A stretch of 20,571 bases of DNA from Lentzea aerocolonigenes (lineage in GTDB: Bacteria; Actinomycetota; Actinomycetes; Mycobacteriales; Pseudonocardiaceae), in contig NZ_JYJG01000433.1 of NCBI RefSeq assembly GCF_000955955.1, forward strand, positions 1 through 20,571, read 5' to 3'. Shown one piece after another: positions 298-8,818 of this stretch. Position numbers and translations under genes: made by a program. Numbering within the stretch: position 1 is the stretch's first letter; every line of letters begins with the position of its first letter. The notes beneath the pieces were generated by a model. That model saw nothing but the letters and a program-made list of their open reading frames with translations, ran no database searches and was not told the DNA's origin.

Positions 298-1047
298 GTG
301 AAGCAGTGCATCAACTGCATGACCCGGTTGCCGCGCAAAGAGGTCACCGAGGTCGCGTGGTGTGCCTTGTGCACGCCGTGCCTGCAGGTCGTGTCGGACC
401 AGATGAAGCTCCTGCACGACCGGCCTGGTGGCGCGGACGTGCAGATCTACCAGTGCGGCTGGTGCGGTGTCGCGCGCTCGTGCGGCGTCGGCTGGCGGAC
501 TCGGTGCCTCGTGTGCCTGGACGACAGGTCGGTGCCGGACCCGGCCGTGCAGAAGATCGCGCGGCGGCTGGAACTGGACGGAACCTGGCGGGAGAACTCG
601 GAGCTCATCGCCGCGCTGACCGTGAAGATCCGGCTGGCGAAGTACTTCCAGCCCGGCTGGACCGTGCTCGCGACGGACATGCACGGTTTGCCGTGGACGG
701 CGTTCCGGTGGCTGACCAAGTCGCACGGGACGTGGGGGTGCAACGCCGAGACCGGTGAGGTGGCGCGGCTCAAGCACTCGCGTGGCGAGGAGAACCTGCT
801 CTACCTGGTGCGGTACGGGAAGGTGCTCAAGTTCGGCCGTGGCAACGCCGAACGGGTCGGCGGGCACCTCTCGCTGGGCGCGGTTCCCGTGCTGGTGCTG
901 TCCGCTTCCCGCCAGGACGTCACGGTTGCCCGCGATCGTCTGAAACGTCTGCACCGCACGGAGATGGTGTCGCAACGCACGCCGGTGGACCTGTTCGCGG
1001 TGCTGCCGGACGGGCAGGACGTCACCGATCAGTTCCCGCGGAGTTGA
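298..1047 (+). CDS. Cys-rich putative zinc-binding protein with GIY-YIG/T5orf172-like C-terminal segment
   Basis: A 249-residue protein starting at GTG 298, with a strong GGGGAGGG Shine-Dalgarno five bases upstream. The N-terminal 75 residues carry ten cysteines in zinc-finger-like spacing: CINC (4-7), CALCTPC (22-28), CGWC (53-56), Cys62, and CLVC (70-73). The middle (80-160) has no motif I recognise. Residues 168-190 read LLYLVRYGKVLKFGRGNAER followed by VGGH, resembling the core of GIY-YIG and T5orf172-type domains (a 'YLV..g.vlKfGrg...Rv..H' pattern). The second catalytic tyrosine of classical GIY-YIG enzymes is replaced, so nuclease activity is doubtful. It follows the GAF-regulator tail by 24 bases and overlaps the convergent ATP-grasp gene by 26 bases at the 3' end. 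Function is unknown; nucleic-acid binding is a reasonable guess. Confidence 0.75.
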   Translation: MKQCINCMTRLPRKEVTEVAWCALCTPCLQVVSDQMKLLHDRPGGADVQIYQCGWCGVARSCGVGWRTRCLVCLDDRSVPDPAVQKIARRLELDGTWRENSELIAALTVKIRLAKYFQPGWTVLATDMHGLPWTAFRWLTKSHGTWGCNAETGEVARLKHSRGEENLLYLVRYGKVLKFGRGNAERVGGHLSLGAVPVLVLSASRQDVTVARDRLKRLHRTEMVSQRTPVDLFAVLPDGQDVTDQFPRS

Positions 1048-2371
1048 GGCCCGTCTCCAGGCCGTTGAGGATCGCGTGGCAGTCGCGGTGCAGCTGGTGC
1101 ACGTCCGGAGCGGTGACCACGAAGAGCCCCAGCCAGTTCCGGGATCCGCCGCTGGGGTCGTAGACCGGGACCGGTTCGTTCCTGGGCATCGAGAAGGCCG
1201 GGATCTCCTCCAGTTCGGTGCCCGGCGTGACGATCGCGGACCAGTCGACGTCGTCGGGGCGCCACAACGGTTGTGTGCTCCACGGTTCGCCGGCGGCGTT
1301 CGTCGGGATGACCGCGACCGACGCCGCCGCGCGGCCCGCGGTGGTGAGCATCTGGGCAGGGTAGAAGACCTCGTGGCCGAGCAGTTGGTCGACGAGCATG
1401 CCGATCGGGTCGATGCCGAAGACCTCCTCGATCTCCCGCGTGATCATCACGCCGCCGAACCGCGCGCCGGTCTCGATCAGCGTCAACGAGCCGTTCTTGC
1501 CCAGCTTGATCTCGGTGTGGGTGCCGCAGGTGTCGAGCTGCAGCGCGGTGACGGCGTCTCTCGACACCTCCTCGATGCGGCGCTGGAGGTGGTCGGGCAG
1601 AGTGCACGGGGCGGTGCTCGCGACCTCGGTGAACGGCGGGATCGCCGGCAGCCTGGCCGTGATGCACAACGGGTGGTAGACGCCACCGGCGACGATCCCC
1701 TCGACGCTCACGTAGTCGCCGTGGCCCGGCCCCGGATACCAGCCTTCCGTGGTGCCGCTGAAGATCTCCTCGACGAGCAGGTCGCCGTCGGTGTCCTGCG
1801 CGTAGAGCTCGTTCATGCCGACCTGGCTGCCCAGTTCGAGCGCGTCGGCGACCTCGGCCCACGCCTCCGCCACGTCGGTGTGGGCGTTGAGGACCAGCTG
1901 CGCGACGGAACCCGCGCCCCAGGCCGGTTTGAGCAGGACCGGCGGGGTGAGCGCGGTCAGGGCGTCAAGCAGGTCCACTTCGGACTCGACGCGGCGGAAG
2001 TCCGGGATCGGCACCTTCGCTTCTCGCCAGGTCTCGCGCATCAGCCGCTTGTCGCGCGCTCGCACCAGGTTCGGGCCCGCGCCGGCGAGGCCGAGGCGGT
2101 CCGCGACGTGGGCGATGAGCAGCACGGCGAACTCGGACAGCGTGATGATCGCGTCCGCGCCGATCGCCTTCGCGTGCCGGGCGACGAACTCGACGAGCTC
2201 CTCGCCGCGCGGGGCGTCCGGCGCGTCGACGATGTCGGTGCAGAACCGTTGTGCCGCTTCGGGTACCGGCATCAGCGCCAGCACGTGCAGCTCGCCCTTG
2301 GCGGCGATGCGCGGGAACGAGTGCTCCAGAGGCGGGCCGCCCTTGACGTACAAGTAGAGGATCTTGCTCAT
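1022..2371 (-). CDS. ATP-grasp carboxylate-amine ligase-like protein
   Basis: A 449-residue ATP-grasp enzyme starting at ATG 2371, whose start overlaps the stop of the MFS gene (ATGA). The N-terminal Rossmann-like pre-domain covers roughly residues 1-100. The ATP-grasp core follows: PVLLKPAWGAGS (144-155, Lys148 for ATP phosphates), DLLVEEIFSG (197-206, adenine hinge) and a metal-binding strand with GTHTEIKL (283-290, Glu287) and LIETGARFGG (298-307, Glu300). This layout fits the subgroup that forms an acyl-phosphate from a carboxylate and couples it to an amine, as in L-amino acid ligases (BacD type) and carnosine-synthase relatives. A C-terminal extension (345-449) may shape the substrate site. 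It is the last gene of a coupled operon with an exporter and a PEP-synthase-like phosphotransferase, which suggests dipeptide or amide formation in a small specialised-metabolite pathway. The substrate cannot be read from sequence. Confidence 0.88.
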   Translation of the reverse strand: MSKILYLYVKGGPPLEHSFPRIAAKGELHVLALMPVPEAAQRFCTDIVDAPDAPRGEELVEFVARHAKAIGADAIITLSEFAVLLIAHVADRLGLAGAGPNLVRARDKRLMRETWREAKVPIPDFRRVESEVDLLDALTALTPPVLLKPAWGAGSVAQLVLNAHTDVAEAWAEVADALELGSQVGMNELYAQDTDGDLLVEEIFSGTTEGWYPGPGHGDYVSVEGIVAGGVYHPLCITARLPAIPPFTEVASTAPCTLPDHLQRRIEEVSRDAVTALQLDTCGTHTEIKLGKNGSLTLIETGARFGGVMITREIEEVFGIDPIGMLVDQLLGHEVFYPAQMLTTAGRAAASVAVIPTNAAGEPWSTQPLWRPDDVDWSAIVTPGTELEEIPAFSMPRNEPVPVYDPSGGSRNWLGLFVVTAPDVHQLHRDCHAILNGLETGLNSAGTDR

Positions 2372-3537
2372 CCTGAGCGCTCCTTCGTGCGGACGAAACG
2401 GATCGACAGCGCGACGACGACCATCAGCAGCACCGTCGCGGCGGCGGCGTGCACCAGGAACTCGTTCATCGCGCCGCGGGCGAGGTAGCCGCCGAGCAGG
2501 AAGATCACCAGCGAGCACACCGCCCGGTCGATCAGCGACTCGATGGACAGCAACGTGGCGCGGCTGCGGGGATCGGTGATGGCGTCGTTGACGAGCTGCC
2601 GCTGGACCGGGAACGACAGGCCGGTGGCGAGCGAGAACACGCACAGGCACGCGATGGTGGCGACGAGCCCGGCCGGCGCCAGCAGTGCCAGGCACACCGC
2701 CATCACCGTGGTGAGCACGAAGACCGCCCGCAGGTCGCTCATGGCTCGGCGGATCAGGTTCGGGCGGGCCGCTCCCAGTGCCTCGAACAGCGTGGTGACG
2801 GCCATGAGCACGCCGAATCCGGCCACCGGCAGGTGTTTCGCGTCGAGGACGGGCTGGAACAGGTTGGCCTGCAGGATGCGGACCAGGGTGAAGATCGCGA
2901 CGCCCTGGACCATCAGCAGCATCAGGTAGTGATCGCGTTCGAGGGTGGCGAAGGCACGTTTGACGGCGAGTTTCTCGTGGTGGTGCTCGCCGGGCGGCAG
3001 CGGCGGGAGCCTCAACGCGATGCCGAGCGCGATGAGTGTTGCGGCGGCGGAGAGCCAGTACGGCGAGGTGAACTGCCACTGCATCAGGACACCGGCGGCG
3101 GGCAGCGCGACGACGCGTCCGGTGAGGCTGTAGGCGCGGGCGCTGCCTTCGGCTTGCGTGTAGAGGTCGTCCTGGCCGGTGCGGTGCAGGTACTCGTAGA
3201 GGTACGCGCTGCCGGCGCCGGACGTGAACGAGTAGGCGAGCGCGACCAGCAGGAAGTGGCCGAGGAAGCCCCAGTAGTTCTGCGCGAACACCGGGATCAG
3301 GTTGGCGGCGGTGAGCGTGATGGCACCGAGCTGGAGGAACCGGCGGTAGTCGAAGCGGTCCGCGAGCACACCCGTCGGCACGTCGAGCAGGCAGAACGCG
3401 ACGTAGTAGATGGCCTGGATGCCGAAGATCTGCTGGTCGGTGAGGCCGATGTCGCGCTGGTACAGGTAGAAGATCGGCAGCCACAGCAGCAGGCCGTTGA
3501 ACAGCTGGTAGCCCTTGTACAGGCGGATGACCGTCAT
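2368..3537 (-). CDS. Major facilitator superfamily transporter
   Basis: A 389-residue membrane protein with about twelve hydrophobic segments. Residues 52-66 (DVPTGVLADRFDYRR) match the MFS loop 2-3 signature. A central hydrophilic loop near 187-205 contains a GEHHHEK stretch, and the second half repeats the six-helix pattern. The start is ATG 3537, overlapping the TGA of the upstream kinase-like gene (ATGA); the stop in turn overlaps the start of the ATP-grasp gene in the same way, so all three are probably translationally coupled. In-frame codons extend further upstream, but they lie inside the upstream gene and read as a shadow. An MFS protein beside an ATP-grasp ligase recalls self-protection or export of ligase products (BacE beside BacD in bacilysin). 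Export of this operon's product is inferred. Confidence 0.9.
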   Translation of the reverse strand: MTVIRLYKGYQLFNGLLLWLPIFYLYQRDIGLTDQQIFGIQAIYYVAFCLLDVPTGVLADRFDYRRFLQLGAITLTAANLIPVFAQNYWGFLGHFLLVALAYSFTSGAGSAYLYEYLHRTGQDDLYTQAEGSARAYSLTGRVVALPAAGVLMQWQFTSPYWLSAAATLIALGIALRLPPLPPGEHHHEKLAVKRAFATLERDHYLMLLMVQGVAIFTLVRILQANLFQPVLDAKHLPVAGFGVLMAVTTLFEALGAARPNLIRRAMSDLRAVFVLTTVMAVCLALLAPAGLVATIACLCVFSLATGLSFPVQRQLVNDAITDPRSRATLLSIESLIDRAVCSLVIFLLGGYLARGAMNEFLVHAAAATVLLMVVVALSIRFVRTKERSG

Positions 3538-5444
3538 GCGTACGGGCGCAGCTGCAGCAGGTGCACGTGGTGGGAGTCGGCGGCCCACTCGATGTCGACG
3601 GGCTGGCCGAACGTGTAGTCGGGGGAGAAGTGGGACTGCAGCAGGCGTCCTGCCGTTGCGAGTCTCTGCAGCTGCTGCTTGGTCGCTTCGTCCACATCGG
3701 ACTCACCGAGCGCCACCGTGCGGCCGCCGCCCTCGACCGTGTTGAACAGGTACTGCGACGGTTGCGCCTCACCGTCGACGACGTCGGTGACCTTGCTCGC
3801 GACGTTGATGTAGACGTTGCGGAAGTCGTTGCGGTTCAACGGGTTGGTCGTGACCATGACGCCGCCGCGGTCGGACGGCACCTGCTCCTGGATGATCACG
3901 CCCATGTAGGCGTCGTCGAGCGAGATCCCGGCCTGCTCGCGCAGCCGGGTGCTGCGGTCGTTGACGAGGCTGGCCCAGACCTTCTTGACGCTGCCGAGGA
4001 TTCCGCGCGCGTCGCTGACGTGCGTGACCGACTCGTAGATGCCGGCGGCGGAGAACCCGGCGAGGTCCTCGGCGTTGGACGAGCTGCGCACGACGAACGT
4101 GCTGACGCCGGAAAGGTGCTTGATGATCGCGTCGTCGATCTCGGTGAGCAGCGCGTCCGGGAACTTCGCGGTGCGGATGAGGTGCTGCAGCTCGACGCAC
4201 TGGGCGTCGGTCTGCGGCGCGTCGAGCTCGAGGGCGAGCTTGAGCTTGCCGATGGCCTGCTGCAGGCGCGGGCTCGCTTCCAGGAACCGTTGGTGCAGTG
4301 AGAACGGCAGCGCGATGCCACGCGGGATGCGGATGTGGTCGCGGAACAGGTTTCGCGCGCCTCGGTCGAGGTCTGGCGTGCCGAGGAGCTGTTCGAGGTA
4401 GGGGAGGAGGTTCTCGCGCGGTGGCCTGGGGATGCGGTAGAAGCCGAGCCAGCGGGTGGAGCCGTTCCGCGCGACCTCGTTCAGCTCGCCCAGGTTCGCG
4501 GCCTTCGTGCCGTACCTCGTGCTGTCGCGCCACCTCAGGTCCTGGAGGTTGGCGATCTTGTCGTCGTCCAGGTCCGGCTCGTCCATCGTGACGCGGGTGG
4601 CGAGCCAGGACGGCTCTCGCGTGTCCGGCCGCTCGATCGGCTCGACACCGATCCCGGTCGCGCCGGGGTCGACCGTGTAGCGGACCCAGCGGCCGTCGAG
4701 GTGGGCGAGGGTGTCGAGCGCTTGCAACTGGATGGCGTTCGGGATGCCCCAGCCGCTCGCCAGTACGTTCGTGTGCGACAGCGGCGTGGTGTGCTCGGCG
4801 TTGACAACCCCTGTCAAGCGCGGGATGTCGTCCGGCACCTTCGCCATGACGATGATGTCGTGCCAGGCGAGCTGGTTCTCCTCGTACTCCTGCTCCGTCC
4901 GGAACACCCGGAGTCTTCCCTCGGCCGTTCCGGGATTGAGCGGGACGAATGAGTTGGTTGAGAAAAGCTCATGACTGAGAATTCGCGGCAGGACGTCCTT
5001 GGGAATGTTCGCCACGTGACTTTCCTGCAGATGATTCGCCGGTTTCAGCAGGATCGGCACGCTCTGGTCGACGTTCGCGTGCACCTCGTCGTAGAAGTAC
5101 TGGAGCATCTCGGCGGTCATTGTGTCCGCTTCGACCGTTTCGAGCGAGAAGAACCTGTGGTCGTGCAGCGCCAGGATGCCCAGGCAGAACCGGCGGTCCA
5201 CGCGGTGGTAGACCTCGAAGTTGATCTCGTCGAGCCGGCGTTCCAGCTCGTCAGGGGGCATGTGCAGGATGTGCGCCGCGATGTAGCGGACGTGGAACAG
5301 GTTCTCCCGGCTGTCCATGAAGTGGATCAGCCCGGTCTCCCGGTCCACCACCAGCTTCACGAATCGATAGCCGCTCAATGTTCCGGACAGCTGTGTGAAT
5401 GCGGAGAGAGTGAGCCGTTCACCGACCAGCGCGGGTTCCTGCAC
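3534..5444 (-). CDS. PEP-synthase/dikinase-like phosphotransferase with swivel domain before the ATP-binding domain
   Basis: A 636-residue protein starting at GTG 5444 and ending TGA 3534, overlapping the MFS start. Residues 1-190 form an N-terminal domain I do not recognise. Residues 211-238 contain the phosphohistidine swivel motif TTPLSHTNVLASGWGIPNA (219-237, His224). The C-terminal half is a PPDK_N-type ATP-binding domain: GTKAANLGEL (312-321), VVRSSSNAEDLAGFSAAGIY (451-470), IIQEQVPSDRGGVMVTTNP (517-535) and the closing QPVDIEW...LLQLRPY (614-635). PEP synthase and rifampin phosphotransferase place the ATP domain first; here the order is swivel then ATP domain, as in plant glucan water dikinases. 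No PEP/pyruvate-binding barrel is present, so it probably moves the beta-phosphate of ATP through His224 to another substrate, perhaps the ligase product. No strong Shine-Dalgarno is visible at the GTG. Confidence 0.82.
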   Translation of the reverse strand: MQEPALVGERLTLSAFTQLSGTLSGYRFVKLVVDRETGLIHFMDSRENLFHVRYIAAHILHMPPDELERRLDEINFEVYHRVDRRFCLGILALHDHRFFSLETVEADTMTAEMLQYFYDEVHANVDQSVPILLKPANHLQESHVANIPKDVLPRILSHELFSTNSFVPLNPGTAEGRLRVFRTEQEYEENQLAWHDIIVMAKVPDDIPRLTGVVNAEHTTPLSHTNVLASGWGIPNAIQLQALDTLAHLDGRWVRYTVDPGATGIGVEPIERPDTREPSWLATRVTMDEPDLDDDKIANLQDLRWRDSTRYGTKAANLGELNEVARNGSTRWLGFYRIPRPPRENLLPYLEQLLGTPDLDRGARNLFRDHIRIPRGIALPFSLHQRFLEASPRLQQAIGKLKLALELDAPQTDAQCVELQHLIRTAKFPDALLTEIDDAIIKHLSGVSTFVVRSSSNAEDLAGFSAAGIYESVTHVSDARGILGSVKKVWASLVNDRSTRLREQAGISLDDAYMGVIIQEQVPSDRGGVMVTTNPLNRNDFRNVYINVASKVTDVVDGEAQPSQYLFNTVEGGGRTVALGESDVDEATKQQLQRLATAGRLLQSHFSPDYTFGQPVDIEWAADSHHVHLLQLRPYA

Positions 5445-5526
5445 GCGCCGGAAGATACTCGCTCCGGCTGGTTTGCGGCCAGCACGTCTCAGCTGGTTCC
5501 TTTCCTTGTCTCATTGCGGTCAAGAG
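5445..5526. promoter_or_regulatory. Divergent intergenic region between the kinase operon and the glycosyltransferase operon
   Basis: This 82-base gap must hold the promoters of both divergent transcripts. It contains an inverted repeat GCTGG (5467-5471) / CCAGC (5479-5483) with a 7-base spacer, and the heptamer GCTGGTT occurs twice as a direct repeat (5467-5473 and 5492-5498, 25 bases apart). These are candidate binding sites for a shared regulator. I could not assign convincing -35/-10 hexamers on either strand. Confidence 0.35.
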
Positions 5527-6627
5527 ATGACAATCGCTGTCATGCGCGTCTTGTTCGGCGGTGTTCCCGCCGCCGGCCATCTGTTCCCGCTGATTCCCCT
5601 GGCCCAGGCCCTGCGTCACGCCGGCCACGACGTCGTCGTCGTGTCGCTGGACGGCGCCGAGTCCCTGGTGGCCGGCCTCCCGTTCGCCGGTCCCGCTCCG
5701 GGAGTCGACTGGCGCCGGACGATCCGCGCGCTCGGTGCTGCTCGCCTGCCTGCCGAGATGGCGCGCACCGTGGAGACCAACTCGGCGGACCGCGAGGCCT
5801 TCGTCGCGCTGGCCGCCCTGGTGAACGACGAGGTGGCTGAGAACGTGGCCGCCTTCGCGTCGTCGTGGCGCCCGGACCTGGTCGTCTACGAGTACCTGTT
5901 CCCGGCAGCCGCCGCGGCCGCCACGGTGCTGGGTGTTCCCGCCGTGCGGCACGACCTGGGCTTCACCGAGATCGCGCCGCTGCACGACGTGATGGTCAAG
6001 CACATGTCCGTCCCGATGGGCGAGGTGCTGTCGTTGGACGTGGCTCCGCCGTCGATGGTCGGCGGTCAGCCGCGCGGCTGGCCCCTTCGCCCCGGTGCCT
6101 ACACCGGAACCGGAGTGGTGCCGCCGCGCACGGGTCCGCGGATCGCCGTGACCCTGGGAACCGTGCCGCCCAAGGTCGGCGGGTTCTCGACGCTGGACCG
6201 GGTGGTGACGGCCGCGGCCTCGGTGGCCGCCGAGTTCGTGCTCGTCATGGGGGACATGGACATCAGCTCGCTGGGCGGACTGCCACCCAACGTGACGGCG
6301 TGCGGCTGGGTGCCGTGGGACTCGCTGGTCCGCACGTCCGACGCGGTGATCCACCACGGCGGTTCCGGCACGGCGCTGGCGGCCCTGGCCTGCGGGGTTC
6401 CGCAACTGGTACTGCCTGACGGCTCCGACCGGTTCGCCGCTGCGTCTGCGGTCGACGAGCGCGGAGCGGGCATCTCGGCGCGCGGCGACGACGTGTCCGC
6501 CGAGCTGATCTCGCGGCTGCTCACGGACTCCTCGTTGCGCGCTGCGTCCCGTGAGGTGGCGGCGGAGATCGCGGAGATGCCGTCGGTGGAGTCGGTGGCG
6601 CGACGGCTGGAGAGCCTGGTCGGCTGA
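5527..6627 (+). CDS. GT1-family (GT-B fold) glycosyltransferase, macrolide/MGT type
   Basis: A 366-residue glycosyltransferase. The N-terminal domain opens with MRVLFGGVPAAGHLFPLIPL (6-25), containing the acceptor-side His18 typical of GT1 enzymes. The C-terminal donor-binding domain has the nucleotide-sugar signature IHHGGSGTALAALACGVPQ (275-293) followed by LPDGSDRFA, the region that holds the donor's diphosphate and sugar. Enzymes of this type transfer a sugar, often a TDP-deoxysugar, from a nucleotide donor to a small-molecule acceptor in the cytosol. At 366 residues it is somewhat shorter than typical macrolide glycosyltransferases. ATG 5527 and ATG 5542 are both possible starts; neither has a clear Shine-Dalgarno, and the second would begin exactly at the conserved MRVL. 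It is divergent from the kinase-MFS-ligase operon and lies 28 bases before a sugar kinase gene. Confidence 0.88.
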   Translation: MTIAVMRVLFGGVPAAGHLFPLIPLAQALRHAGHDVVVVSLDGAESLVAGLPFAGPAPGVDWRRTIRALGAARLPAEMARTVETNSADREAFVALAALVNDEVAENVAAFASSWRPDLVVYEYLFPAAAAAATVLGVPAVRHDLGFTEIAPLHDVMVKHMSVPMGEVLSLDVAPPSMVGGQPRGWPLRPGAYTGTGVVPPRTGPRIAVTLGTVPPKVGGFSTLDRVVTAAASVAAEFVLVMGDMDISSLGGLPPNVTACGWVPWDSLVRTSDAVIHHGGSGTALAALACGVPQLVLPDGSDRFAAASAVDERGAGISARGDDVSAELISRLLTDSSLRAASREVAAEIAEMPSVESVARRLESLVG

Positions 6628-6655
6628 CTCCGGCGCAGTTGGGTAACCCACCGCC

Positions 6656-7519
6656 GTGGACGACATCGTGGTGGTGGGCCAGATAGCGCGGGACCTGGTC
6701 CTCGTCGTGGACGAAGTGCCAGGTCCCGGCGGCACGGCGCCCGTGCGGCAGCGGCGCGAGATGCTCGGCGGCAAGGGCGCGAACATCGCGGTCGGCCTGG
6801 CCCAGCTGGGCGCGCCGGTGCGGCTCGTGGGCGTGGTCGGGGACGACGACGTGGGCGCACGCCTGATCGCGCGGGCTGCCGCGGACGGCATCGGCACCGA
6901 CGCGATCGTGCGACGGCCGAACTGTCCGACCGGCCTGATCGTGGACCTCGTGGCCGACGGCCGGCGCTACCTCGAAGACCTCCCGCACGGCGTGCTTCTC
7001 GAAGAATCGGACATAACTCCGGAGATCTTCACGCGCGCGGGGACCGTCGTGCTGCAGCTGCAACAACCACCCGAGGTCGCGCTGAAGGCCGCGCAGGCAG
7101 CCGAGGGGCGGGTGGTCCTCGACGGGTCGCCCGAACGGCTGCGAGACGAACTGCTGGCACGCGCGGACGTCGTGCGGGCCGATCACCAGGAGGCCGAGCT
7201 GCTGTCCGGCCGCAAGATCACGGACGCGGACGAGGCGATCAGCGCGGCGCGAGTGGTGATGGAGCACGGCCCCGGGTTGGTGGTGTTCGCCGCGGACGGC
7301 GTCGGCAACGTGTTCGTGTGGGACGAGGGTGAACTCGTGGTGCCCCTGGGAGACGTCGAGGTGGTCGACACGACGGGCGGCGGCGACTCGTTCGTGGCGG
7401 CGCTGACGTTCGCTCTCACGCGTGGGGACGGGCCACAGGAGGCGGCTCGGCTCGCGGTGAAGGCCTCCGGGGACACGGTCGCGCGCCCCGGTGGGCGGCC
7501 GGACCTCACTGGACTCTGA
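6656..7519 (+). CDS. PfkB-family (ribokinase-like) carbohydrate kinase
   Basis: A 287-residue kinase starting at GTG 6656. It has both PfkB signatures: an N-terminal GGKGANIAVGLAQLGAP (38-54) with VGVVGDDDVG following, and a C-terminal DTTGGGDSFVAAL (238-250) with the catalytic base at Asp244. The family phosphorylates a hydroxyl of sugars, nucleosides or related compounds using ATP. The substrate cannot be fixed from sequence; the overall form is ribokinase-like. The gene follows the glycosyltransferase by 28 bases on the same strand, so they are likely co-transcribed. The gap contains an 11-base palindrome-like repeat, TGGGTAACCCA (6640-6650), just upstream of the start. It could supply a phosphorylated sugar precursor for the glycosyltransferase, or be unrelated housekeeping. 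Confidence 0.88.
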   Translation: MDDIVVVGQIARDLVLVVDEVPGPGGTAPVRQRREMLGGKGANIAVGLAQLGAPVRLVGVVGDDDVGARLIARAAADGIGTDAIVRRPNCPTGLIVDLVADGRRYLEDLPHGVLLEESDITPEIFTRAGTVVLQLQQPPEVALKAAQAAEGRVVLDGSPERLRDELLARADVVRADHQEAELLSGRKITDADEAISAARVVMEHGPGLVVFAADGVGNVFVWDEGELVVPLGDVEVVDTTGGGDSFVAALTFALTRGDGPQEAARLAVKASGDTVARPGGRPDLTGL

Positions 7520-7562: not shown

Positions 7563-8297
7563 GTGCGAGTGCTCGCCGTCGTGCTGTTGCTCCTGTTCTC
7601 GGCGACCCCTGCGCACGCCGCGACCGGCACGTACCTCCGCCTCGGGCACTTCTCGATGGACCAGGCCCGCGTCGAGGCCACCCTCGACGGCGTCAAGCTC
7701 GGCACGCTCGACTACGCCCAGCTCTACGACTACCGCCGCGTCGAACCCGGCGACCACGTGGTCGAGTTCCGCACCGACCCGGCCTCGCCCGTGCTGAGGT
7801 CCGTGCTGGTGAAGGCGGGCGAGGGCAAGGCGTACACGGTGATCGACAGTGCGTCGGCGATGAAGGTGCTCGAAGACGACGTCAGCCTGCCGCCCAACGG
7901 CCAGGCGCGGCTGCGGGTGATCAACGCCGGTGACGCCGAAATGGACCTGCTGCGCGGCAGCGTGTTCGTGCACCGCAACGTCCCGGCGAACTCCACCACC
8001 GGCTACGCGGTGATGCTGCCCGGTTCGGACGCCCTGCAGATCACCCAGCGCGGCAAGGAGTCCACGCGGCTGGAGGCGACGCTCGAGTCCGGCGCGGTCT
8101 ACACGCTGCTGGTGAGCGCGCGCCGCATCGAGCTGCGCACGGACGCCAAGGGTGCCCAGGTCGTGCCCGGCGGCGGCCAGGAAACCGGCTTCGGCGGCAT
8201 GGCGGGCGGCTGGGACTGGCTCACCGCGCTGGTCATCGCGCTGATCGTGGGCGTCGCGATGTTCTCGGTGCGCGGCAGGCTCTTCCGGTTCGGCTGA
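7563..8297 (+). CDS. Secreted DUF4397-domain surface protein with C-terminal anchor
   Basis: A 244-residue exported protein with start GTG 7563 and Shine-Dalgarno GGGGAGG just upstream. Residues 1-19 are a signal peptide (VVLLLLFSATPAHA, likely cleavage after AHA). Residues 22-190 form a beta-rich body matching the DUF4397 pattern (YLRLGHFSMDQARVEATLDG near the start, then LRVINAGDAEMDLLRG). The C-terminal end resembles a sorting signal: a Gly-rich QETGFGG patch (206-212), one hydrophobic helix (about 218-235) and a basic RGRLFR tail. There is no canonical LPxTG. The stop overlaps the start of a class F sortase gene by one base (TGATG), so this protein is the obvious candidate substrate of that sortase. 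Its role outside the cell is unknown. Confidence 0.85.
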   Translation: MRVLAVVLLLLFSATPAHAATGTYLRLGHFSMDQARVEATLDGVKLGTLDYAQLYDYRRVEPGDHVVEFRTDPASPVLRSVLVKAGEGKAYTVIDSASAMKVLEDDVSLPPNGQARLRVINAGDAEMDLLRGSVFVHRNVPANSTTGYAVMLPGSDALQITQRGKESTRLEATLESGAVYTLLVSARRIELRTDAKGAQVVPGGGQETGFGGMAGGWDWLTALVIALIVGVAMFSVRGRLFRFG

Positions 8298-8818
8298 TGA
8301 AGGGCAAGCTCGTGATGGGCGCGGCGATCCTGGTCGCGCTGATCTACATCGTGAAGGATCCGGGCGCGGAGAAGGTGCCGGAGCCGGTGACCGTGCGGAT
8401 CCCGTCGATCGGCGTGGAAACGTCGCTGGAAGCGTTGAAACTGGGCAAGGACGGCGTCCTGGAACCGCCTACCCGCTCGGACAAGGCCGGGTGGTACGCC
8501 AAGGGGGTCGCGCCGGGCGACGCCGGACCGGCCGTGATCGCGGGTCACGTCGACTCGAAGACCGGGCCTGGTGTGTTCTTCCGGCTGCCGGAACTGCAGC
8601 CCGGCGCCGAGGTTCTGGTGGAGCGCGAGGACGGCAGCAAGCTGACGTTCGTCGTGAGTCACCGGTACGCCACGCAGAAGACCGCGTTCCCGACCGCGAT
8701 CGTCTACGGGCCGACGCCGTTGTCCGAGCTGCGGCTGGTGACGTGCGGCGGCGACTTCGACCGGGTGGCGGGCAGCTACCGCGACAACGTGATCGTCGAA
8801 GCGGTCCTCAAAGGCTGA
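8297..8818 (+). CDS. Class F sortase
   Basis: A 173-residue membrane-anchored cysteine transpeptidase. Residues 5-19 are an N-terminal hydrophobic anchor; the sortase beta-barrel follows, beginning VTVRIPSIGVETSLE. Catalytic residues are visible in order: His84 in AGHVDS (82-87), Cys150 in LVTCGG (147-152) and Arg162 in YRDNVIV (161-167). The short length, the actinobacterial context and the 'GGDFDR..GSYRDNVIV' ending fit class F. It would cleave a C-terminal sorting motif in an exported protein and attach it to the cell envelope. Its start overlaps the stop of the DUF4397 gene (TGATG), so the two are translationally coupled and probably enzyme and substrate. Confidence 0.92.
   Translation: MKGKLVMGAAILVALIYIVKDPGAEKVPEPVTVRIPSIGVETSLEALKLGKDGVLEPPTRSDKAGWYAKGVAPGDAGPAVIAGHVDSKTGPGVFFRLPELQPGAEVLVEREDGSKLTFVVSHRYATQKTAFPTAIVYGPTPLSELRLVTCGGDFDRVAGSYRDNVIVEAVLKG

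Follow-up and report, generated by a model that had tools for sequence, protein, structure and literature searches.

The stretch of Lentzea aerocolonigenes DNA analyzed here (contig NZ_JYJG01000433.1, positions 1 to 20,571; "the window") very probably carries a biosynthetic gene cluster of the phosphoramidon/talopeptin type. The cluster comprises genes for an ATP-grasp ligase, a dikinase-like kinase, a glycosyltransferase, and a major facilitator superfamily (MFS) transporter, in a variant layout that includes the putative exporter gene. We base this reading on gene content, homology, conserved catalytic residues, and co-conservation; the reactions and the product are predicted. It follows from the homology of the glycosyltransferase to TalC, from the homology of kinase and ligase to those of a Kitasatospora locus (L130), and from the co-occurrence of the three genes in 11 of 11 close Streptomycetaceae cases. 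An original prediction, made from the sequence alone, had described a minus-strand trio joined by two ATGA overlaps and facing a glycosyltransferase gene and a PfkB gene. All of these positions were confirmed, and Pfam supports each assignment (Table 1). The overlaps, at 2368-2371 and 3534-3537, join the ligase, MFS, and kinase genes in both the open reading frames (ORFs) and the raw sequence.

Relationship to the tal genes and proposed pathway

When the glycosyltransferase served as protein query, TalC of Streptomyces mozunensis (named so in UniRef) matched with 54% identity over 97% of the query; across comparisons, the identity was 54-56%. The L130 glycosyltransferase is 97.4% identical to TalC. 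Its gene lies in an operon on one strand, in which a dikinase-like kinase gene is followed by an ATP-grasp ligase gene and then by the glycosyltransferase gene. Each of the three window proteins aligned with its L130 counterpart: the glycosyltransferase with 56.2% identity over 361 positions, the kinase with 55.4% over 632 positions, and the ligase with 64.2% over 447 positions. Together with the homology to TalC itself, this relationship to the neighbors of a nearly identical TalC supports the phosphoramidon/talopeptin logic that had been proposed for the locus.

Trees were computed by a quick method with the Shimodaira-Hasegawa-like approximate likelihood ratio test (SH-aLRT) as the only support measure. 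The sets were thinned, with most rows from Streptomyces left out: the kinase tree retained 74 of 94 sequences, the ligase tree 44 of 74, and the MFS tree 51 of 71; the glycosyltransferase tree contained all 30 chosen rows. In the latter, TalC and the glycosyltransferases of these clusters formed one 22-row group (SH-aLRT 98), four rows of which are database proteins with unseen surroundings. Among solved structures, the enzyme matched CalG3, followed by the rhamnosyltransferase entries 9ke1 and 9ke2 of the PDB. In the tal cluster, TalE is reportedly the kinase and TalC the glycosyltransferase, and the kinase-ligase-glycosyltransferase order of L130 would fit the names talE, talD, and talC.

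In the proposed pathway, the ligase would use ATP to join two amino acids into a dipeptide, as its homology to BacD suggests. The kinase would then take up the beta-phosphate of ATP on His224 and phosphorylate the dipeptide at its free amino nitrogen, yielding an N-phosphoryl dipeptide, AMP, and inorganic phosphate, in line with the chemistry of its family and the tal precedent. By analogy to TalC, the glycosyltransferase would attach a deoxysugar, probably from deoxythymidine diphosphate (dTDP)-L-rhamnose, to the phosphoryl group, and the MFS protein may export the product. When the same genome was searched for the dTDP-deoxysugar proteins RmlC and RmlD, RmlD scored above the cut-off. The product is likely to be a metalloprotease inhibitor, a class in which phosphoramidon is a standard compound. 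Phosphoramidon, talopeptin, and the sugar-free phosphophenylalanylarginine FMPI are on record from actinomycetes, according to the accessible portion of a review (PMC6429109).

FMPI, which in that portion carries no sugar (PMC6429109), is compatible with a different ending of the pathway. The N-phosphoryl dipeptide may be made, with the glycosyltransferase acting on another position or substrate, so that the product would not be a phosphoryl glycoside. The location of the glycosyltransferase gene on the opposite strand and the existence of Streptomyces ligase-kinase-MFS loci with no match to it also point in this direction. However, the enzyme falls within the tree group of TalC, and its gene is linked to the kinase and ligase genes in two different gene orders. 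We consider this ending quite improbable.

Table 1. Features of the putative cluster and the adjoining PfkB gene in the window
Feature	Position	Strand	Length	Basis and remarks
ATP-grasp ligase	1022-2371	-	449 aa	Pfam ATP-grasp_4 (PF13535), 1.3e-7
MFS transporter	2368-3537	-	389 aa	Pfam MFS_1 (PF07690), 2.3e-21
Dikinase-like kinase	3534-5444	-	636 aa	Pfam PPDK_N (PF01326), 2.8e-37; 129.2 vs cut-off of 27 bits
Divergent intergenic region	5445-5526 (to 5541 if glycosyltransferase starts at 5542)			Sequence
Glycosyltransferase	5527-6627	+	366 aa	Pfam EryCIII-like_C, 4.7e-32
PfkB/ribokinase-like kinase	6656-7519	+	287 aa	Pfam PfkB, 3.9e-41; excluded from the cluster

A start of the glycosyltransferase gene at 5542 appears as likely as one at 5527, because the N-terminal residues of TalC match those encoded from 5542. 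The gap between the divergent kinase and glycosyltransferase genes is thus 82 bases (start 5527) or 97 bases (start 5542). The predicted 82-base divergent promoter region keeps its size with the first of these starts, and a promoter scan of 5400-5560 gave no match to a sigma-70-type promoter. On the other side of the cluster, a gene for a cysteine-rich protein (298-1047, plus strand) shares 26 bases with the ligase gene at the 3' end of the latter. This protein gave no match in Pfam and NCBIfam scans, and its counterpart in Lentzea terrae is 90% identical.

Features of the kinase and the ligase

By its sequence, the kinase clearly contains a PPDK-type ATP-binding domain, located at the C terminus (residues 369-634). 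It is preceded by a conserved N-terminal domain (approximately residues 1-165) and a likely phosphohistidine swivel domain (approximately 167-257, with H224). The signs of the swivel domain are a TPLSHTN motif, a PF00391 match below the cut-off in the L130 kinase, and an additional weak hit to rifampin phosphotransferase that, at 7 bits, lacks significance by itself. Residue H224 and the seven ATP-domain residues R453, E459, D460, E571, E619, Q631, and R633 were identical in 94 of 94 kinase rows, and 12 of the 15 N-terminal positions checked were also invariant; the positions had been chosen for being invariant in an earlier 56-row alignment. From the kinase protein search, the best 120 of 1244 matches, down to 57% identity, were considered. 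The best NCBIfam score was that of phosphoenolpyruvate (PEP) synthase (119.4 vs 883 bits), and rifamycin phosphotransferase reached 101.7 vs 999 bits. On the basis of these missed cut-offs and of the likely domain order, which relies on a weak match, we rejected an identification of the kinase as a conventional PEP synthase, PPDK, or rifampin phosphotransferase.

For the ligase, the nearest solved structures are those of BacD (profile E value 1.3e-75); the NCBIfam equivalog for BacD gave 167.5 bits against a cut-off of 850. In BacD, one tryptophan, which we take to be Trp332 in the usual numbering, restricts the first amino acid to alanine. Val308 of the window ligase aligns with this residue, for which entry 3wo1 has alanine. 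At the equivalent position, the 21 ligases assigned to the glycosyltransferase-type group have V or L, and 37 of 38 ligases of one Streptomyces group have A. A bulkier first residue, e.g., leucine, is plausible for the window enzyme because Val308 occupies the tryptophan position and V or L prevails in its group.

A class-wide search with the ligase gave seven matches in 394 genomes, including the genome of the window, and a search of viral contigs revealed no relative. Among plasmid records, six had a ligase match and two a kinase match covering at least 80%. One of the plasmids, from Streptomyces (L144), encodes a 46% identical ligase relative amid a polyketide synthase, two further ATP-grasp genes, and a dioxygenase, with no such kinase annotated.

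Co-conservation and competing explanations

In the Streptomycetaceae, 41 of 249 genomes contained a ligase match at an E value of 1e-60. When the ligase was 62-66% identical, the kinase and glycosyltransferase genes were adjacent in all 11 cases. With ligases of approximately 49-52% identity, the kinase was found within 1.5 kb flanks in 9 of 10 cases and a glycosyltransferase of at least 50% identity in none of the 10. Ligases of 42-45% identity occurred in 20 genomes, from which 11 loci were made; all 11 contained the kinase, and none contained the glycosyltransferase. From one set of 58 loci, nine (L060-L068), in which no more than the general ATP-binding part matched, were excluded before counting. 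ORF clustering placed a divergent PAS/LuxR-type regulator relative beside the Streptomyces ligase-kinase-MFS set in 26 of 26 loci. Pfam was run on one of these regulators (L040:6963-8255), and two plasmid records are annotated likewise.

In the family of Lentzea, the Pseudonocardiaceae, the ligase is present in 10 of 297 genomes and at least 60% identical in nine. All nine are among the 32 genomes whose kinase match has an E value of 1e-100 or better (a count not corrected for kinship). The kinase adjoins the ligase in three of the nine, one of them degenerate, the glycosyltransferase does so in six, and neither does so in two. Amycolatopsis xylanica has the layout of the window without PfkB, and in four Crossiella-type genomes the glycosyltransferase, MFS, and ligase genes lie together, with the one kinase gene elsewhere in each genome. 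The degenerate case is the operon of L. terrae (L012, L070), where matches cover residues 30-460 of the kinase, 328-376 of the MFS protein, and all but the first 21 residues of the ligase. Large parts are missing between these matches, and an assembly fault is also possible.

The MFS protein of the window grouped with six other cluster MFS proteins, from A. xylanica, the four Crossiella-type genomes, and G030 (SH-aLRT 99). No match to it was found in the 10 long Kitasatospora loci. In five of these loci (L129-L132 and L134), a member of a single ORF cluster lies at a distance of 1-6 kb from the tal-type operon; its copy in L134, the sole copy scanned, encodes an Atg22-like MFS protein.

The fifth gene of the original prediction fared differently. 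PfkB lies only 28 bases beyond the glycosyltransferase gene, and all five genes could form one cassette in which PfkB feeds a sugar phosphate to the glycosyltransferase. Among the ligase-bearing loci, many of which had short flanks, only the window and L. terrae were found to encode a PfkB protein of 50% identity or more. No PfkB match was detected near the ligase in the 10 long Kitasatospora, the four Crossiella, and the A. xylanica loci. In L. terrae, three genes (by eye, TetR-like, SDR-like, and one more) separate the glycosyltransferase from PfkB, which stays with a gene pair for a DUF4397 protein and a class F sortase; in the window, this pair lies at 7563-8818 on the plus strand. PfkB was rejected as a member, since it is not co-conserved and is detached in L. 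terrae, and a five-gene cassette is highly improbable. In other genomes, kinase, ligase, MFS, and glycosyltransferase genes are again grouped as proposed earlier; PfkB is not part of this recurring neighborhood.

Several observations weigh against a phosphoramidon/talopeptin-type cluster. In six of the nine genomes with a ligase of at least 60% identity, the kinase was not found within the approximately 9 kb fetched on each side, and two of these six also gave no glycosyltransferase or MFS match in the fetched flanks. The original prediction had named such separation of the genes as a result that would speak against it; for the kinase it occurs, yet several genera conserve ligase and glycosyltransferase together. 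Genome G222 encodes a 50% identical ligase and no long kinase homologue. The window kinase is more similar to an unlinked copy in its own genome (62.3%; contig 3 of G000) than to the L130 kinase. A 35-row group in the kinase tree takes in all ligase-linked kinases used and leaves the unlinked Lentzea copy apart, but its SH-aLRT is only 89 and it also holds rows with unseen surroundings. Furthermore, the equation of the L130 kinase with TalE would rest on gene neighborhood and gene naming, and RmlC of the window's genome scored below the cut-off (145.7 vs 155.75).

A recent swap, in which the cluster kinase would derive from the unlinked kinase-MFS copy on contig 3, was considered and is not supported: the tree places the window kinase with ligase-linked kinases and that copy apart (SH-aLRT 89), although plain identity to the copy (62.3%) is the higher one. 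In Lentzea-type genomes (L069, L071, and L072), the unlinked kinase-MFS copy adjoins an IlvD/Edd-type dehydratase gene (31%) and, by eye, a KDPG aldolase-like gene.

Outside the Actinomycetes (Bdellovibrionales, Elusimicrobia, and others), a same-strand MFS gene directly followed the kinase gene in 20 of 20 fetched loci; L021 was assigned to this set by tree, and the contig of L051 ends inside the MFS gene. None of the 20 loci contained a match to the window ligase or glycosyltransferase. Neighbors were listed by eye in 14 of them, and one Elusimicrobia locus has a different ATP-grasp-like gene (below the cut-off) beside the pair. Kinase and MFS may be an old, widespread pair that makes and exports N-phosphoryl (phosphoramidate) metabolites, with phosphoramidon as only one branch and with ligase, glycosyltransferase, regulator, and HAD-like partner (see below) added later. 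We put this forward tentatively, as somewhat less probable than its opposite. One shared acceptor across phyla may even exist, because the pair recurs across phyla with a strongly conserved kinase N-terminal domain. Searches of a partial literature collection showed no published work on this kinase family or on a product of the cross-phylum pair.

Directly after the MFS gene, 19 of 26 Streptomyces loci have a HAD-like gene on the opposite strand, and 4 of 20 loci outside the Actinomycetes (L013:13171-13746, L018, L020, and L058) have one on the same strand. By eye, the encoded proteins mostly start like signal peptides and carry a D-L-G-x-T-L motif, where HAD phosphatases usually carry D-x-D; the Pfam matches of the two scanned were weak to moderate. 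The HAD-like protein is possibly an extracellular partner.

Its recurrence would suit a role of the kinase in self-protection. Here, ligase and glycosyltransferase would make a glycosylated dipeptide that the kinase reversibly phosphorylates inside the cell, and export by the MFS protein would be followed by reactivation outside. The Crossiella-type loci, whose ligase, MFS, and glycosyltransferase genes have no kinase gene linked to them, are consistent with such a role, and the accessible text of PMC4844700 describes rifampin phosphotransferase, a member of the same enzyme class, as a resistance kinase. On the other hand, no such HAD match was found in the window or in the Pseudonocardiaceae loci covered, which run to L074 and in part have short flanks, and the kinase adjoins a TalC-like gene in every close Streptomycetaceae case. 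Moreover, the title of the tal study, as cited by PMC9961378 and PMC12305651, names an N-P (nitrogen-phosphorus)-bond-forming kinase. Self-protection seems very unlikely, and we favor a biosynthetic kinase in a phosphoramidon/talopeptin-type cluster.

Comparison with known systems

With rifampin phosphotransferase, PEP synthase, and PPDK, the window kinase clearly has the ATP-binding domain in common and probably also the His swivel domain. The order differs: the His of rifampin phosphotransferase is C-terminal, according to the available part of PMC4844700, whereas the likely swivel domain of the window kinase precedes the ATP-binding domain. The L-glutamine kinase of Campylobacter jejuni is also akin to dikinases. 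This enzyme performs an ATP-dependent N-phosphorylation, as PMC6429109 states; unlike the proposed window kinase, it acts on the glutamine amide. Phaseolotoxin biosynthesis involves the PPDK-like PhtL, whose homologues agnD1 and agnD2 are found for agrocin 84, and these are linked to N-P bond formation in the accessible sections of PMC4530439. The same sections place ATP-grasp peptide ligases in the phaseolotoxin cluster, a likeness to the window at the level of description.

Bacilysin offers a parallel for the other part of the cluster. BacD is the closest solved relative of the ligase, and BacE is an exporter; the MFS gene of the window likewise adjoins the ligase gene. The window ligase differs from BacD in its score far below the equivalog cut-off and in Val308, and the bacilysin system is not known to include a comparable kinase or glycosyltransferase.

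To our knowledge, genes are known for few natural N-P compounds. The occurrence of related pairs of kinase and exporter in distant bacteria suggests further compounds of this kind. Our comparison catalogues loci with the glycosyltransferase, loci without it, and loci with the kinase-MFS pair alone, all of which can be examined for new N-phosphoryl peptides. It had been suggested that standard genome-mining tools may miss such a locus. However, an antiSMASH table in the accessible part of PMC11705897 gives a 40% phosphoramidon match in a Rhodococcus.

The tal cluster of S. mozunensis is the closest parallel. The window shares with it the TalC-like glycosyltransferase, and the window kinase (55%) and ligase (64%) are homologous to those of the L130 operon. 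In contrast to the tal-type arrangement, with kinase, ligase, and glycosyltransferase genes on one strand in the 10 long Kitasatospora loci, the glycosyltransferase gene of the window is divergent and the MFS gene lies between the kinase and ligase genes. A tal-like gene set with an exporter gene is now placed in Lentzea.

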